From assembly GCA_013154305.1 (NCBI GenBank), contig JAADCT010000035.1:1-47435 (forward strand): a stretch of 47,435 nt of DNA. The letters are read 5' to 3'. Below, in pieces: positions 1,672-43,400 of the stretch. Under the pieces are notes generated by a model. It was given only the letters and a program-made list of their open reading frames with translations. It ran no database searches and was not told where the DNA came from. The stretch comes from Aquificota bacterium (GTDB lineage: Bacteria > Aquificota > Aquificia > Aquificales > QOAS01). The first letter of the stretch is position 1. Every line of letters starts with the position of its first letter. The translations under genes and the position numbers were made by a program.

Positions 1672-1685
1672 CGGGAGCGGGGCCA

Positions 1686-1694
1686 ATTTTAAAA
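1686..1694. promoter_or_regulatory. Shared divergent -10-like box (ATTTTAAAA)
   Basis: This is the only AT-rich stretch in the 27 bases between the tadA and GNAT start codons. TTTTAAAA is its own reverse complement, so it can serve as a -10 element in both directions. It ends 4 bases before the GNAT start codon and about 15 before that of tadA. The same word appears between hldD and pilT and between the symporter and prmA. Promoter function is inferred. Confidence 0.5.
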
Positions 1695-1698
1695 CCTT

Positions 1699-3454: not shown

Positions 3455-3493
3455 CGGTAGGTTTAAAAAGTTAGGACCTCCGTCGGTTAACGA

Positions 3494-14794: not shown

Positions 14795-14870
14795 TAACCG
14801 CAGGCGGAAAGGGGCCTATCTGAGTAGAACCACTTTCGGGACCCGCCTTTGCGGTTATAACTACCTACTT

Positions 14871-20072: not shown

Positions 20073-21182
20073 TCAGTCCCCCCCTTCGGGGGAAACGACG
20101 ACCCTTATCGGCAGGCCGTACTTTCGGGCAAACTCGTAGTCCCTCTCGTCGTGGGCGGGAACGGCCATTATGGCGCCCGTTCCGTATTCGGCCAAAACGT
20201 AGTTGGCGGTCCAAATCGGTATCAGGTCCCCCGTCAGGGGGTGGATGGCGTACCTGCCCGTAAAGACGCCTTCCTTTTCTTTGACCCTGCGGCGTTCCTC
20301 GACCGGCGTCTTCTTTATCCTCTCGAGAAACTCCTTTACCTTCTCCTCCTGCGGGGTTCCCTCGGCGAGTTTTTCCGTCAGGGGGTGTTCGGGCGCCAGG
20401 ACGAGGAAGGTGACGCCAAAGAGCGTGTCGGGACGGGTGGTAAAGACGACGATTTCGTCGCCGGTATCTTCGACCTTAAAAACTATTTCGGCGCCCTCGG
20501 AGCGCCCAATCCAATTCCTCTGCTGGGCGATGACCCTCTCGGGCCACTTGCCTTCGAGCTTTTTCAGGTCCTCCAAAAGTCGGTCGGCGTAGGCGGTAAT
20601 CTTCAGATACCAGGAGGGGATTTCCCTTTGGACCACCTCGCTGTCGCAGCGCCAGCAGCGGCCCTCTATCACCTGTTCGTTGGCCAAAACGGTTTCGCAG
20701 GAGGGGCACCAGTTTACTACGGCGCTCTTTCGGTAGGCGATGCCCCTTTCGAGCATCTTTAGAAATATCCACTGGTTCCACTTGTAGTATTCGGGGTCGC
20801 AGGTGGCTATCTCGCGGTCCCAGTCGTAGGACAGGCCGAGCCGCTTTAGCTGGCGGCGCATGTTTTCGATGTTCTTTTCGGTCCACTCGGCGGGGTGGAT
20901 TTTGTGCTTTATCGCCGCATTTTCGGCCGGCAGGCCGAAGGCGTCCCAACCCATCGGGTGGAGGACGTTTTTGCCCTTCATTCGGAGGTATCGGGCAATC
21001 GCGTCGCCTATGGTGTAGTTTCTAACGTGACCCATGTGGATGTTTCCCGAAGGGTAGGGAAACATTTCGAGGACGTACTGCTTCGCGTCCCGCGGCCGGT
21101 CCTCGGAGGCCTTAAAGGCCTTTTCCTCCTCCCATATTCGTTGCCACTTCTTTTCCACCTTTCGGGGGTCGTAGCGCTCCAT
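20073..21182 (-). CDS. leuS: Leucyl-tRNA synthetase, N-terminal half only (split or truncated)
   Basis: Bacterial-type LeuRS covering residues 1-369 of a protein usually over 800 long. Present and intact: the HMGH motif at 49-52 in [11 protein letters not shown], zinc cysteines 159/162 and 176/179, and the CP1 editing domain with [10 protein letters not shown] (247-256) and [15 protein letters not shown] (334-348), whose D345 has the same number as the universal editing Asp. The frame then stops (TGA) after [19 protein letters not shown]. Missing are the rest of CP1, the KMSKS loop and the anticodon and C-terminal domains. The next 87 bases hold no LeuRS remnant and lead into the permease. 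The start follows TATTAC by 7 bases. Either a two-gene LeuRS or a disrupted gene. Confidence 0.93.
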
Positions 21183-21221
21183 CGCAAGGGTAATATTTTG
21201 GCACCGCCGCCCCGCGGCCCC

Positions 21222-23027: not shown

Positions 23028-23040
23028 CGGAGGTTTTCAA

Positions 23041-23049
23041 AAATTTAAC
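23041..23049. promoter_or_regulatory. Overlapping divergent promoter box (AAATTTAAC)
   Basis: The only AT-rich region in the 26 bases between two divergent start codons. TTTAAC at 23044-23049 lies four bases before the plus-strand ATG. On the minus strand the same bases read GTTAAATTT, 13 bases from the other ATG. Neither start has a Shine-Dalgarno sequence. Confidence 0.45.
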
Positions 23050-23053
23050 ACCT

Positions 23054-24741
<1,688 letters not shown>

Positions 24742-24743
24742 TC

Positions 24744-27477: not shown

Positions 27478-27488
27478 AGCGGAGCGAT

Positions 27489-27498
27489 ATTTTAAAAT
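27489..27498. promoter_or_regulatory. Palindromic divergent -10-like box ATTTTAAAAT
   Basis: A perfect palindrome in the 40 bases between the symporter gene and prmA, identical to the one between hldD and pilT. It lies 11 bases from the symporter start and 19 from the prmA start; neither start has a recognisable Shine-Dalgarno. Confidence 0.5.
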
Positions 27499-27517
27499 TG
27501 GTAAACGCCGGCAAAAG

Positions 27518-31847: not shown

Positions 31848-31876
31848 TTGCTTCGGGCCGCCTATTTTGGTATATT
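31848..31876 (+). promoter_or_regulatory. Sigma70-type promoter of the tRNA-Pro gene
   Basis: TTGCTT at 31848-31853, a 17-base spacer, then TATATT at 31871-31876. This would start transcription about eight bases before the mature tRNA 5' end at 31891. Confidence 0.75.
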
Positions 31877-31890
31877 TATCTTTTTGTCCA

Positions 31891-31965
31891 CGGGGCGTAG
31901 CTCAGAGGCAGAGCGCTGGCATGGGGGGCCAGAGGTCGCCGGTTCGATCCCGGCCGCCCCGACCA
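31891..31965 (+). tRNA. tRNA-Pro (anticodon GGG)
   Basis: All arms fold: the acceptor CGGGGCG pairs with CGCCCCG; the D stem GCTC/GAGC closes a 7-base loop; the anticodon stem CTGGC/GCCAG closes loop ATGGGGG with anticodon GGG; the variable loop is AGGTC; the T stem GCCGG/CCGGC closes TTCGATC. The discriminator is A73 and CCA is encoded. The C1-G72 pair and A73 are typical bacterial tRNA-Pro identity features. The total is 75 bases. Confidence 0.96.
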
Positions 31966-32053: not shown

Positions 32054-32113
32054 AAATTTCTGGTCGGCGGTCCCCTCCTCGGCGACACTTTTTCTATTTT
32101 GGAGGTGTTGCCC

Positions 32114-34009
32114 TTGCTCGAGAGGTACGAGCTTTTAAAGGAATACAGGTCGCCCGAGGACCTAAAGAGGTGGGACTACGAAAAGCTTAAGAAACTGGCC
32201 GAGGAGGTTCGCGACTACATAATCCGCGTAACGGCCAAAACGGGCGGCCACGTTGGACCCTCCTTGGGAACGGTCGAACTGACCATAGCCCTCCTGAGGG
32301 TCTTTAATCCCCCCGACGACGCCGTCGTTTGGGACGTGGGCCACCAGGCCTACGCCTGGAAGATACTGACCGACCGGAAGGAGGCCTTCCAAACCCTGCG
32401 CCAATACGGGGGAATTTCCGGTTTCGTAAAGAGGGGGGAAAGCCCCTACGACGCCTTTACGGTGGGCCACAGCTCCACCTCCATATCGGCGGCCCTCGGC
32501 ATCCGAAAGGGAAAGGACCTGACCGGTAGACAAAAGGACTTCGTGGTGGCGGTTATAGGCGACGGGGCCCTGACGGGCGGCGAGGCTTGGGAGGGCCTCA
32601 ACAACGCCGGACAGCTCAGGCCCGACCGCTTTCTGGTAATCCTCAACGACAACGAGATGTCGATTTCACCCAACGTGGGCGCCGTGTCCAACTACCTGAA
32701 CAAGGTCTACAGCGGTAAGGTCGTCCAGGAGCTGAGGCAAAAAATCAAACGGCTTTTGGAAAACAACTTCAAGCCGGGCCTGCGGCTGATGAAGCTCCTC
32801 GAGGAATTTATGAAGGGTCTCATCTCGCCGGGCATCCTTTTCGAGGAGTTGGGGTTTAACTACATAGGCGTCATCGACGGCCACGACCTCCCCCTTTTGG
32901 TCCAAACGCTGGAAAACACCAAACACATCGAGGGTCCGGTCCTGCTTCACGTTAGGACCGTCAAGGGGAAGGGCTACCGGCCGGCCGAGGAAAACCCGGT
33001 AAAGTGGCACGGCGTCGGACCCTACAAGGTGGAAACGGGCGAGAGCCTCAAAAAGGGGACCAAAAGCTGGTCCAAGGCCTTCGGCGAAGCCCTGGTGGAA
33101 CTGGCCGAGCGCGACGAGAGGATAGTGGCGATAACGCCGGCCATGAAGGAGGGCTCGGGTCTGGCCGAATTTGCCGAGCGCTTTCCCGACCGCTTTTTCG
33201 ACGTGGGGATTGCGGAGCAGCACGCGGCCACCTTCGCGGCCGGCCTGGCCACCCAAGGCCTCAGGCCCGTCTTGGCCTACTACTCGACCTTTATGCAGCG
33301 GGCCTACGACCAGATAATCCACGACATAGCCCTCCAAAAGCTTCCGGTGGTTTTGGCCGTCGACCGCGCCGGCTTGGTGGGCGAGGACGGACCGACCCAC
33401 CACGGGGCCTTCGACCTCTCTTACCTGAGGGTCGTTCCCGGCGCGGTAGTGGCCGCCCCCAAGGACGAGGTCGAGCTGAGGAACCTCCTCTACACGGCCC
33501 TGAAGTGGGAGGGCGGACCCTTTGCGATAAGGTATCCGCGCGGGGCGGTCGTCGAGAGCCTGAGCGGCCGTCCCCCCGAGGGCTTCGAGGAAATAGAGGT
33601 GGGCTCTTGGGAGGTCCTGCGGAGGGGAAGCCTCCCGGTGGCCCTTTTGGGCGTCGGCGTTGCGGTCTCGTGGTGTCTGGAGGCGGCCCGCCTGGTCGAA
33701 AGGGAGCTGGGCGAGGCGCCGACGGTCGTAAACGCCCGCTTCGTCAAACCCCTCGATTCGGAGCTTTTAAAAACCCTCGCCCTCAAAAAGGAGTTTCTGA
33801 TAACCGTTGAGGAAAACGCCCTCAAAGGGGGATTCGGTTCGGCAGTTTTGGAGGAGCTTTCCGACGCCGGACTCTCGAAGGAGGTTTCCGTCGTTCGGAT
33901 AGGACTTCCCGACCGCTTTATCGAACACGGTCCCCAAAAGGTCCTGAGGGAAAAGTTGGGCCTGACGCCGGAGGCGATTGCCAAAAGGGTCCTCTCGTTG
34001 GTCGCCTGA
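32114..34009 (+). CDS. dxs: 1-deoxy-D-xylulose-5-phosphate synthase
   Basis: Condenses pyruvate and glyceraldehyde 3-phosphate with thiamine diphosphate, opening the MEP isoprenoid pathway. TPP-binding GDGALTGGEAWEGLNNAG, the catalytic His region TGGHVGPSLGTVELTIAL, VGHSSTSISAALGI, and the transketolase-type DRAGLVGEDGPTHHGAFD are visible. No ATG begins the frame. TTG at 32114, eight bases after GGAGG, gives a family-like N-terminus (LERYELLKEYRSPEDLKRW) and 631 residues; TTG at 32099 is the longest alternative. C-terminal transketolase domains are complete. Confidence 0.96.
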   Translation: MLERYELLKEYRSPEDLKRWDYEKLKKLAEEVRDYIIRVTAKTGGHVGPSLGTVELTIALLRVFNPPDDAVVWDVGHQAYAWKILTDRKEAFQTLRQYGGISGFVKRGESPYDAFTVGHSSTSISAALGIRKGKDLTGRQKDFVVAVIGDGALTGGEAWEGLNNAGQLRPDRFLVILNDNEMSISPNVGAVSNYLNKVYSGKVVQELRQKIKRLLENNFKPGLRLMKLLEEFMKGLISPGILFEELGFNYIGVIDGHDLPLLVQTLENTKHIEGPVLLHVRTVKGKGYRPAEENPVKWHGVGPYKVETGESLKKGTKSWSKAFGEALVELAERDERIVAITPAMKEGSGLAEFAERFPDRFFDVGIAEQHAATFAAGLATQGLRPVLAYYSTFMQRAYDQIIHDIALQKLPVVLAVDRAGLVGEDGPTHHGAFDLSYLRVVPGAVVAAPKDEVELRNLLYTALKWEGGPFAIRYPRGAVVESLSGRPPEGFEEIEVGSWEVLRRGSLPVALLGVGVAVSWCLEAARLVERELGEAPTVVNARFVKPLDSELLKTLALKKEFLITVEENALKGGFGSAVLEELSDAGLSKEVSVVRIGLPDRFIEHGPQKVLREKLGLTPEAIAKRVLSLVA

Positions 34010-37046: not shown

Positions 37047-37541
37047 TTAAAATCCGCAGTCGGTAAATTCGACCTCCAGCTCCAGCCTGTAGGGGCCGAG
37101 GGATAGGCTCCAGCGTTTGGGAACGAAAGTCCAGGTTTTTCCCTGCGGGGTTTCCTTAAAAACGCACCGGGGAAAGGTGTCCCTTGCGACCGTCCCGTCG
37201 GGGGTCTTGAAGAACATCAGTCGGCCTCCGCGGTACCAAAGTTCGAGCGACACCTCCTTTCGGACCTCCGGCCTCCGGAGTTCCACCTCGAGGACGCCGA
37301 AGAGTTTTTGTTCCCGAACCTCGCCGCCGCCTCTGAACTCCATCTCGAGGCGGTAAAGGTTTTCGCCCACGGGCCTAACGCGGTAGCGCTCGAGCCGCAG
37401 CCTTCCCTCGGGTCCGACGAGGTAGGAAGCGCCGGGTCGGAGGAAAAAGTCCACCTTCGGGTCGGGAAAGAGGGAGGGGACCTCCGACAGGTCGAGGGCA
37501 AGGACGAGGACCGGCAGGAGGGGAAAAAGTTTTTTGACCAT
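37047..37541 (-). CDS. Hypothetical exported protein
   Basis: A 164-residue protein with an N-terminal signal-like segment (MVKKLFPLLPVLVLALDLSE), then a beta-rich body of alternating charged and hydrophobic residues (LRLERYRVRPVGENLYRLEM, ELEVEFTDCGF). Two cysteines near the end (PRCVF and TDCGF) could pair in the periplasm. I do not recognise the family. The start is the ATG at 37539-37541, four bases after TTAACC. It is divergent from the flavoprotein gene, 42 bases away. Confidence 0.65.
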   Translation of the reverse strand: MVKKLFPLLPVLVLALDLSEVPSLFPDPKVDFFLRPGASYLVGPEGRLRLERYRVRPVGENLYRLEMEFRGGGEVREQKLFGVLEVELRRPEVRKEVSLELWYRGGRLMFFKTPDGTVARDTFPRCVFKETPQGKTWTFVPKRWSLSLGPYRLELEVEFTDCGF

Positions 37542-37583
37542 CAAAGGTTAAGAATTTGGACCCGTTTACCATAGAGGGTCTTG

Positions 37584-38956: not shown

Positions 38957-39008
38957 ATTTCAAACTCTTTAACTAATTTACAATTGTCTTCTTCGAAAGG
39001 AGGTTGTA

Positions 39009-39797
39009 ATGCCCGCCAAAGTTTTCGTCGTTACCTCGGGCAAGGGAGGCGTCGGAAAGTCGACGACCACGGCCAACGTTGCCACCGCCTTGGCCAAGCT
39101 GGGCAAAAAGGTTTTGGCCATCGACGCCGACATAGGCCTCAGGAACCTCGACATGCTTTTGGGTCTCGAAAACCGCATCGTCTACGACATACTCGACGTG
39201 GTCGAGGGCCGCACGACGCCCGAAAAGGCCTTCATCCGCGACAAGAGGGGATTGCCGCTGTACCTTTTGGCGGCCAACCAGACCAAGAACAAGGACGCCA
39301 TAAGCGAGGAGCAGATGGTCGAGCTAGTCAAAAACCTGAAGGAGAACTACGACTTTGACTACATACTGATAGACTCGCCCGCCGGCATAGAGCAGGGCTT
39401 TAAAAACGCCGCCGCCCCGGCCGACGCCGCCCTAGTCGTCGTAAACCCGGAGGTGGCCTCCGTCCGCGACGCCGACCGCGTCATAGGCCTCCTCGAAAAC
39501 ATGGGCAAGGAGGAAATCCACCTCATCATCAACCGCATCGACTGGAAGAAGGTCAAGAAGGGGGAAATGATGTCGGTCGAGGACATCGAGGAGCTCCTCA
39601 AAACGCCCGTAATAGGGGTGGTCCCTTACGAGGACAAACTGGTCGACTTTACCAACCGCGGGGTTCCCATAGTTCTCGAAGAGAAGTACGACTCGGCCAA
39701 GGCCTTTATGGACATCGCCCGCCGCATAACCGGCGAGCAGGTTCCGCTCAAGTTCTACGGCCAAAGGAAGGGCCTTTTGGGCTTTCTCTTCGGCTAA
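39009..39797 (+). CDS. minD: Septum site-determining ATPase MinD
   Basis: Membrane-associated ATPase that, with MinE, keeps the division septum at mid-cell. The deviant Walker A GKGGVGKST is at 11-19 (signature Lys12 and Lys17). DADIGLRNLDMLLGLENRI, ILIDSPAGIEQGF and PVIGVVPYEDKL are family features. The C-terminal KFYGQRKGLLGFLFG is the amphipathic membrane-targeting helix. It has a strong Shine-Dalgarno (AAAGGAGG) and is followed by minE after 15 bases. No minC is in the window. Confidence 0.97.
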   Translation: MPAKVFVVTSGKGGVGKSTTTANVATALAKLGKKVLAIDADIGLRNLDMLLGLENRIVYDILDVVEGRTTPEKAFIRDKRGLPLYLLAANQTKNKDAISEEQMVELVKNLKENYDFDYILIDSPAGIEQGFKNAAAPADAALVVVNPEVASVRDADRVIGLLENMGKEEIHLIINRIDWKKVKKGEMMSVEDIEELLKTPVIGVVPYEDKLVDFTNRGVPIVLEEKYDSAKAFMDIARRITGEQVPLKFYGQRKGLLGFLFG

Positions 39798-41033: not shown

Positions 41034-41044
41034 GGGCCCGTCCC

Positions 41045-41060
41045 TATATTTAACTCTTTG
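41045..41060 (+). promoter_or_regulatory. lon promoter -10 element next to the start codon
   Basis: TATATT at 41045-41050 is followed by TAACTCTTTG and the ATG. Transcription would begin about three or four bases before the start codon, leaving no room for a ribosome-binding site. A heat-shock operator (CIRCE-like) is not visible. Confidence 0.55.
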
Positions 41061-43400
41061 ATGGTAGAGCAACCTTTCGGAGCACCTCCCCAGCTTCCCG
41101 ACGAGCTGGTCCTTCAAACCGTTCCCCTGAGGGACCTAGTCGTCTTTCCCAACGTCGTTACCCCCCTCTTTATCGGGCGGCCCTTTTCGATAGAGGCGGT
41201 GAGGCGGGCGTGGGAGGGAAACCGCCTCCTCTTTCTGCCCGTTCAATACGACAAGGAGAAGGAGGAGGTCGGGCCCGAAGACGTTTCCAAGTTCGGAACG
41301 GTTGCCCGTTTGCTCCGCATAGCCACCATCGAGGACAACCGCCTCAAGGTTTTGGTCCAAGGCCTTGCCCGCGGCGAGGCCGAGGAATACCGCTTCGGCG
41401 ACACCATAACCGCCAAGGTGAAGGTCCACAAGGAGAAAAGGCCGGAGCTCTCGCTCGAGGACCGGGCCCTGATGCAGGAAATTAAGGAGCTTTTGGAAAA
41501 GGCCGTTGCCCTCGGGAAGAAGGTCATTCCCGACATGCTCTACCTGATAAAGAACCTCGAGGACCCGGTCAAGTTTACCGACCTGGTGGCCTCGGTCCTC
41601 GACCTCAAAACCGAGGAGGCCCTAAAGCTCCTGGAAACGACCGACGTGAGGGAGCGGCTGCGGCTCGTTTACGAGCTTCTCAACCGCGAGGTGGGCCTGC
41701 TCGAAATTCAGCAAAAGATACGGGAGCAGGCCCGAAAGACTATGGAAAAGGAACAAAAAGAGTACTTCCTGCGCCACCAGCTCAAGGCGATACAGGAGGA
41801 GCTTGGCGTCGGTAAAAACCCGGAGGTCGAGGAATACCGCAAGAAGCTCAAGGCCCTGAAGCTCCCCAAGGAGGTCCGCGAGCAAATCGAAAAGGAGATA
41901 GACCGGCTGGAGAAGCTTCACCCCGACAGCGCCGAGGCCGGCGTTCTCAGGACTTGGCTCGACTGGGTTTTGAACCTGCCCTGGAACAAGAAAACGCGCG
42001 ACCGCTACGACCTAAAGAGGGCCCGCGAGATTCTCGACCGCGACCACTACGACCTGGAAAAGATTAAGGAACGCATAGTCGAATACCTGGCCGTTCGAAA
42101 GCTTACCCGGGGAAAGACCAAGGGTCCGATTTTGCTCTTCGTGGGACCGCCGGGCGTCGGTAAAACCTCCCTCGGAAAGTCGATAGCCAAGTCGCTCGGA
42201 AGGAAGTTCGTCCGCATCTCGCTGGGCGGCGTCCGCGACGAGGCCGAAATCCGCGGCCACCGCCGCACTTACGTGGGCGCCATGCCGGGCAAAATTATGC
42301 AGGCGATAAAGCGCGCCGGCGTCAAGAACCCGGTCCTGATGCTGGACGAGATAGACAAAATGGCCGTCTCGTTCCAGGGCGACCCGGCGGCGGCACTGCT
42401 GGAGGTCCTCGACCCGGAGCAGAACAAAAACTTCGTCGACCACTACATAAACCTCCCCTTTGACCTCTCGGAGGTCATCTTCATCTGCACGGCCAACCGC
42501 CTCGACACCATTCCGCTGCCGCTTTTGGACCGGATGGAGGTTTTGCGCCTTTCGGGCTACTCGGAGGAGGAAAAGCTCGAAATCGCCAAGCGCCACCTCG
42601 TTCCCAAACTGGTTCCCGAACACGGCTTTAAGCCGGAGGAGGTCCGGTTCACCGACGAGGCCCTGCTGGAGATAATTCGGCGCTACACCCACGAGGCGGG
42701 CGTTAGGAACCTCCAGCGCCAAATTTCGGCCGTTTTGCGCAAGCTGGCGGTCAAAAAACTCGAGGGCGAAAAGCCACCCTTTGTCGTTACGGCGGAGCTG
42801 GTTCGCAAGCTTTTGGGAACGCCGCGCTTTTTGCCCTCCAAGAAGGAGAAACCGGAAGTCGGCGTCGTTACGGGGCTGGCGTGGACCGAGCTGGGCGGGG
42901 AGATTATGTTCATCGAGGCCCTGCGGATGCCGGGTAAGGGTAACCTGATTTTGACCGGAAAGCTCGGCGAGGTTATGAAAGAGAGCGCAAAGACCGCCCT
43001 ATCCTACATTCGGTCCAACGCCGAGCGCTACGGCGTCGACGCCTCCCTCTTTGAAAAGAGCGACGTGCACATCCACGTTCCGGAGGCGGCCATTCCCAAG
43101 GACGGACCTTCGGCGGGCGTTGCGATAGCCACGGCCCTCCTTTCGGTCTTTACCGAAACGCCGGTCAGAAACGACGTCGCCATGACGGGTGAGATTACCT
43201 TAACGGGCGACGTTTTGCCCGTCGGGGGGATAAAGGAAAAGATTTTGGCCGCCAAGAGGGCCGGCATTTACGAGGTCATCCTTCCCAAGGAGAACGAGAA
43301 GGAGGTTACGGAGGACCTTCCGGAGTTCGTCCGCGACAAGATGAAGTTCCACTTCGTGAAAAAGGTCGACGAGGTTTTCGACCTGGCGTTGGTAAAGTAG
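41061..43400 (+). CDS. lon: ATP-dependent protease Lon
   Basis: Degrades damaged and regulatory proteins. The 779-residue LonA has the N-terminal substrate domain ([19 protein letters not shown]), a coiled-coil region near 230-300, and the AAA+ module with Walker A GPPGVGKT at 362-369 and Walker [11 protein letters not shown]. The protease domain has catalytic Ser684 in KDGPSAG and Lys727 in GGIKEK. The ATG at 41061 is preceded directly by an in-frame TTG. No Shine-Dalgarno is present. It ends before a terminator. Confidence 0.97.

Follow-up and report, generated by a model that had tools for sequence, protein, structure and literature searches.

The lon gene (endopeptidase La; TIGR00763, 967.7 bits) occupies positions 41061..43400 of the forward strand and opens with an ATG at 41061 that has no Shine-Dalgarno (SD) sequence; 10 nt before this ATG lies a −10 box, TATATT (41045..41050), identical to the box found in tRNA promoters. 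The window, by which we mean the whole 47,435-nucleotide stretch of DNA analysed, is contig 49 of a 1.15 Mb genome bin that is 94% complete. A search for 16S within this metagenome-assembled genome (MAG) found none; the anti-SD is listed as intact ACCUCCUU for the class Aquificae (PMC10783764). A named Aquificota MAG has a lon with 89% identity to the one in the window, and six genus-mates were compared. Within the order, the family of the window is labelled f1 and two others f2 and f3. A Hydrogenobaculum MAG was closest to the f2 genus g11 (80.6% nucleotide identity around lon), and f2 was therefore taken as the Aquificaceae side; we infer that f3 corresponds to Hydrogenothermaceae.

AT-rich boxes beside the start codons of lon and five other genes

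The first-pass annotation of this DNA had singled out six genes in which an AT-rich box stands a few bases before the start codon; all six arrangements are present, each without an SD, and the gene identities were confirmed. At lon, where TATATTTAAC is followed by six bases and the ATG (41045-41063, forward strand), it had taken TTTAAC as the box, and here conservation points instead to TATATT with a gap of 10. This hexamer is kept at a gap of 9-11 in every one of the five genus-mates whose sequence was read through the start (six genus genomes were read in all; a sixth lon locus, that of the named MAG, is identical over this stretch to one of the five). The position of the lon start codon differs by up to 4 codons among the genus-mates, and TATATT moves along with it. 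TTTAAC as the element itself was rejected, being unspecific, with 17 copies in the window. Among the lon genes read in f2 and f3, most lack the TATATT box and several carry an AGGAGGT-type SD.

The other five boxes vary in quality. Upstream of the DUF2892/YgaP-like gene (PF11127; forward strand, start 14871) the box TATAAC (14856-14861) is present as described, with a spacing of 9 bases rather than the 10 first reported, and its relatives have TATATT at a gap of 8-10 in four of five cases and a TAAGAT-type box in the fifth. The rlmB gene (TIGR00186; reverse strand, start 3454) has TTTAAAC followed by six bases (3467-3455), and its AT box is TAACTTTTTAAAC (3461..3473). Three of the six boxes are weak or variable: TATTAC with a gap of 7 before the leuS N-terminal gene (21195-21183, box 21190..21195, reverse strand, start 21182), TTAACC with a gap of 4 before the gene starting at 37541 (37551-37542, box 37546..37551, reverse strand), for which a single comparable orthologue start was found (35-36% identity), and TTTAAC with a gap of 4 before the protoglobin-PsiE gene (23044-23053, forward strand, start 23054). 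AT-rich but variable boxes are found in the orthologues of the globin, rlmB and leuS genes. The protoglobin-PsiE gene (23054-24007) joins a protoglobin domain and a PsiE membrane domain in a single protein, as it does in seven of seven genomes of the genus. The window also encodes a MutL of only 432 aa.

The genes cited as a contrast do carry SDs, namely dapA (AAGGAGG), pilT (GGGGAGG), leuC (GGAGG), minD (AAAGGAGG), minE (GGGGAGG) and the peroxiredoxin gene (AAGGAGG). The minD SD, GGAGG, lies at 38999..39003 ahead of a start at 39009 on the forward strand (TIGR01968), and that of dxs, GGAGGT at 32101-32106, stands ahead of an in-frame TTG at 32114.

Leucyl-tRNA synthetase (LeuRS) is encoded in three separate pieces on three contigs (window 20073-21182, reverse strand; L158 1148-1885, forward; L280 about 1393-2277, forward) that cover model positions 1-363, 360-569 and 591-843, and all three pieces have AT-boxed, SD-less starts as judged by eye. 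The three-way split recurs in the genus, with all three pieces in G001, G004, G005 and G006; LeuRS is in two pieces in f2 and is a single gene of ~900 aa in most f3 genomes searched. Other class I synthetase-like open frames are much shorter in f1 (about 460-700 aa; in the window genome, G000, on C29, C40, C26, C72 and C77) than in f2 and f3 (about 920-1180 aa), a hint that f1 may have split valS/ileS-type genes as well.

Two classes of start in the genome sample

Starts in a 420 kb sample of the MAG were called with a home-made caller that uses coding potential only and is blind to upstream signals, operon status in the MAG and its relatives was judged by orientation and spacing alone, and several of the comparisons were picked once the data had been seen. 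An unsupervised EM two-motif model separated GGAGGT from TAAAATT, the first T of the latter falling at −21 to −13, and this check for two populations bears out the earlier proposal that two initiation classes coexist. TANNNT was found within −21..−12 of 87 of 152 divergent starts (57%) versus 16 of 479 in-frame internal ATGs (3%; Fisher p 6e-48). A shuffle preserving the base composition at each position gave 57.9 expected occurrences against 94 observed (z 6.8), with z 2.1 for the reverse orientation; for divergent pairs of more than 60 bp the values were 4.0 and 0.6, indicating that the signal is directional. Both signals rarely coincide, as 82 of the 152 divergent starts of G000 had the TA box only and 5 had both the box and an SD. 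In G005 the excess of TANNNT over positional composition was modest (71 vs 58.6). Close same-strand starts also had some TANNNT (40 vs 24.8 expected), of which upstream stop codons or internal promoters may be the source. Statistical support thus falls on TANNNT/TAWWWT, and TATATT at lon is a good example of it.

The SD had the opposite distribution in two of the families. In f1 it preceded 67 of 346 divergent starts (19%) versus 92 of 202 close same-strand starts (46%; Fisher p 1e-10), and in f2 28 of 130 (22%) versus 163 of 312 (52%; p 1e-9); the f3 figures were 69 of 110 (63%) and 167 of 268 (62%; p 1). TANNNT near the start, the lack of an SD in the same genes and, in f1 and f2, a preference for single or operon-first genes, three of the features by which a leaderless class is recognized, were found. 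Genes with a divergent neighbour upstream made up 39% of the callable genes in the sample from the MAG itself and 8-29% in those from f2 and f3, which suggests unusually fragmented operons in this genome. Its SD-less genes also have strongly non-random bases before the start (CCG, CTT, TTTG) and G at +4 in 156 of 278 cases.

These data bear on two simpler explanations. It could be argued that six-base AT-rich boxes near an ATG are frequent enough for six examples to arise by chance, as the copy number of TTTAAC and the lack of one consensus among the six quoted hexamers would allow; the difference between divergent starts and internal ATGs and the conservation of the lon box make this scarcely credible. 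Alternatively, the start codons may have been miscalled by a caller that sees coding potential only, the true starts being further downstream, after normal SD-bearing leaders. Only 8 of 172 TA-class genes of f1 had, within 30 codons, an alternative start preceded by an SD, versus 7 of 72 SD-class genes, orthologue starts coincided in 92 of 127 cases, and the lon box and ATG move together, all of which render miscalling very improbable. Both explanations were rejected, on the rarity of SD-preceded alternatives and on the genome-sample statistics together with conservation.

The box as a probable −10 promoter element

Transfer RNA genes provided a translation-independent control. A −10 matrix (TATAAT/TATATT) was built from 28 lead tRNA genes of three genus members, some of which have, by eye, a TTGAC-like −35 about 17 bp upstream of the −10. 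The tRNA-Pro gene of the window (31891-31965, forward strand) has TATATT at 31871..31876, and the flank of this box (TATATTTATCTTTTTG), like that at tRNA-Ala (TATATTTACCTCTTTG), nearly equals the one at lon (TATATTTAACTCTTTG). Matches to the tRNA-derived matrix were enriched at −24..−9 of divergent starts in G000 (49 vs 24.6) and in G011 (29 vs 12.8; column shuffle); in f3 they were found at −48..−33 instead (50-68% of starts), where the starts have SDs. In f2, TTGACA-like −35 hexamers peaked at the canonical 17-bp spacer (12 vs about 4). In −10-aligned profiles, a −35 was not detectable in f1, and no purine peak marked a start site downstream of the box. The upstream box, a directional TANNNT with the same sequence as tRNA promoters, acts like a −10 element of the sigma-70 type, as the first-pass annotation had assumed.

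A third explanation is that the AT-rich stretch acts as a translational enhancer, an unstructured or S1-binding U/A-rich leader, in leadered mRNAs and is no promoter. A U/A excess near −10 has been described in non-SD genes of Aquificae, with the choice between promoter and S1 site left open for bacteria in general (Nakagawa et al. 2017, PMC5397173), and a positional AT excess is seen in our sample too. However, tRNA promoters are never translated and yet have the same directional TANNNT, which argues for a promoter over an S1 site; in addition, the −35 lies at 17 bp in f2, and in f3 the matrix matches shift upstream and SDs return. We consider an enhancer an unlikely source of the signal.

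If the box is a −10 element, its distance from the start codon predicts the length of the leader. The box-to-start gap is 7-15 nt in f1 and 6-12 nt in f2, and the first T of the box has its mode at about −17 in G000, −14/−15 in G005 and G001 and −13/−14 in G011. The usual discriminator between a −10 box and the start site is 6 nt, so that leaders of about 0-9 nt are predicted. The strict leaderless spacing of Deinococcus-Thermus, with the first T at ~12 bp, was not seen; the G000 mode would imply roughly 5-nt leaders, unlike the position of about −12 in fully leaderless genes. Strict leaderlessness, as first proposed, hence gives way to predicted leaders of near zero rather than exactly zero length, and in this near-leaderless form the leaderless reading is very likely. 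The G+C content is 56.5% in the window genome versus 41.8% in two genus-mates (G005 and G001), and the box of the window genome lies ~2-3 bp further upstream.

Overall, the sequence signals make it highly probable that, in this heat-loving lineage, these starts are members of a (near-)leaderless class found across the genome, in which the start codon follows a sigma-70/sigma-A-type −10 element, TANNNT or at lon TATATT, at a distance of 6-15 bp. Transcription by RNA polymerase would start on the AUG or about 0-9 nt ahead of it, which would leave no room for an SD, and the ribosome would be expected to choose the 5'-proximal AUG directly. The ordinary GGAGGT would be used by genes that lie close behind a same-strand neighbour and by a minority of first genes. 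Judged by these signals, the class is confined to f1 and the Hydrogenobaculum-like f2, two of the three families of the order, and is absent from f3.

Divergent genes that share a box

Four short divergent intergenic regions of the window are examples. The auxin-efflux-family gene (start 23027, reverse strand) and the protoglobin-PsiE gene (start 23054, forward) are separated by 26 bp (23028..23053) with one central AT-rich box that reads TTTAAC forward and TAAATT in reverse. A 23-bp region (24721..24743; reverse box TACAAT) belongs to the shortest credible class in the sample, a 27-bp region (1672..1698) has a single TTTTAAAA box (reverse box TAAAAT), and a 40-bp region (27478..27517) has the box ATATTTTAAAAT (reverse box TAAAAT). 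On contig L280, ~26 bp (1367-1392) separate the C-terminal piece of LeuRS from a divergent gene that by eye is hisB-like, and the two seem to have a symmetric ATACTAT box in common, another candidate two-way leaderless promoter.

Across the families, divergent start-to-start gaps go down to 15-23 bp in f1 and f2, and gaps below 35 bp were found in 34 of 238 pairs of f1 and f2 versus none of 55 in f3 (p 0.0008). In a divergent-pair sample of 43 short pairs, overlapping forward and reverse TANNNT boxes were present in 15-40 bp pairs at 10 of 27 in f1 (expected 3.2) and 11 of 14 in f2 (expected 1.6), the expectations coming from mononucleotide shuffles that ignore AT clustering. Of 27 two-box pairs, 13 have predicted start sites exactly 18 bp apart, although 18 bp is also the cheapest overlap for a TANNNT motif. 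The symmetric form TANNNTA was commoner in short pairs (f1, p 0.009; f2, p 0.12, not significant). A genome-wide count of CCAT-box-ATGG pairs gave 104 in f1 and f2 versus 62 in a same-composition control, and 78 versus 82 in f3 (p 0.014), which is weak support since many matches may fall in coding DNA.

Closely spaced divergent genes thus often share what looks like one symmetric −10 box, from which transcription is predicted in both directions. We see about an even chance that in f1 and f2 one such box would serve two divergent (near-)leaderless protein genes, so that an intergenic region of 15-40 bp would hold both promoter cores and both translation starts, the minimum spacing (15-23 bp) would be set by an 18-bp bidirectional geometry with zero-length leaders (17 bp expected), and f3 would be without the arrangement.

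Discussion

With two families of one order whose starts appear to abut the promoter and one that appears to have ordinary leaders, it becomes possible to locate on the tree where leaderless initiation was gained or lost, and to test this in cultured relatives. In such genomes, SD-oriented start prediction can misplace starts, and a very short divergent intergenic region in which both genes use one −10 box would make an unusually compact promoter for two directions. Among the papers accessible to the literature search, none links leaderless genes in bacteria to bidirectional boxes that two genes share, which does not in itself prove that none exists. What appears new here, at the level of predicted promoters, is that divergent genes 15-40 bp apart often share a symmetric −10 box, the start sites being predicted to lie mostly 18 bp from each other.

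The arrangement is of the Deinococcus-Thermus type that the first-pass annotation had likened it to, and resembles leaderless genes of that phylum and of Actinobacteria in having a −10 next to the start codon with SD genes alongside. The difference is that here the box is set back by a few bp more and its spacing is broader, so that for many genes the prediction is a leader of 0-9 nt instead of an AUG at the very 5' end.

The annotation had also known of no such description in Aquificota. That claim of novelty fails, because Zheng et al. (2011, PMC3160421) predicted leaderless genes in silico for two of five Aquificae genomes (20.7-32.4% of genes), with Aquifex aeolicus shown in the figures. 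As in the TA-led genes of that study, which include those of Aquifex aeolicus VF5, TANNNT stands just upstream of non-SD starts, and a further shared trait is that only operon-proximal genes can be leaderless. The box of Zheng et al. is ~12 bp upstream; here the first T falls at −13/−14 in one f2 genome and at −14 to −20 in f1. The within-order split and the tRNA-promoter control are given here and have no counterpart in the available passages of that study. Our motifs are also like those reported for the same order, Aquificales, by Lechner et al. (2014, PMC4227106), an SD of GGAGG and a degenerate Pribnow box; the available passages of that paper make no mention of leaderless genes or of the box-to-start distance.

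Finally, the bidirectional promoters described in the introduction of PMC10268837 have symmetric −10 elements and start sites usually 18 bp apart, which the overlap of forward and reverse TANNNT and the predicted 18-bp separation resemble. The divergent RNA of those promoters is described as often antisense and non-coding; here both outputs would be protein genes, with start codons ~5-15 bp from the shared box.
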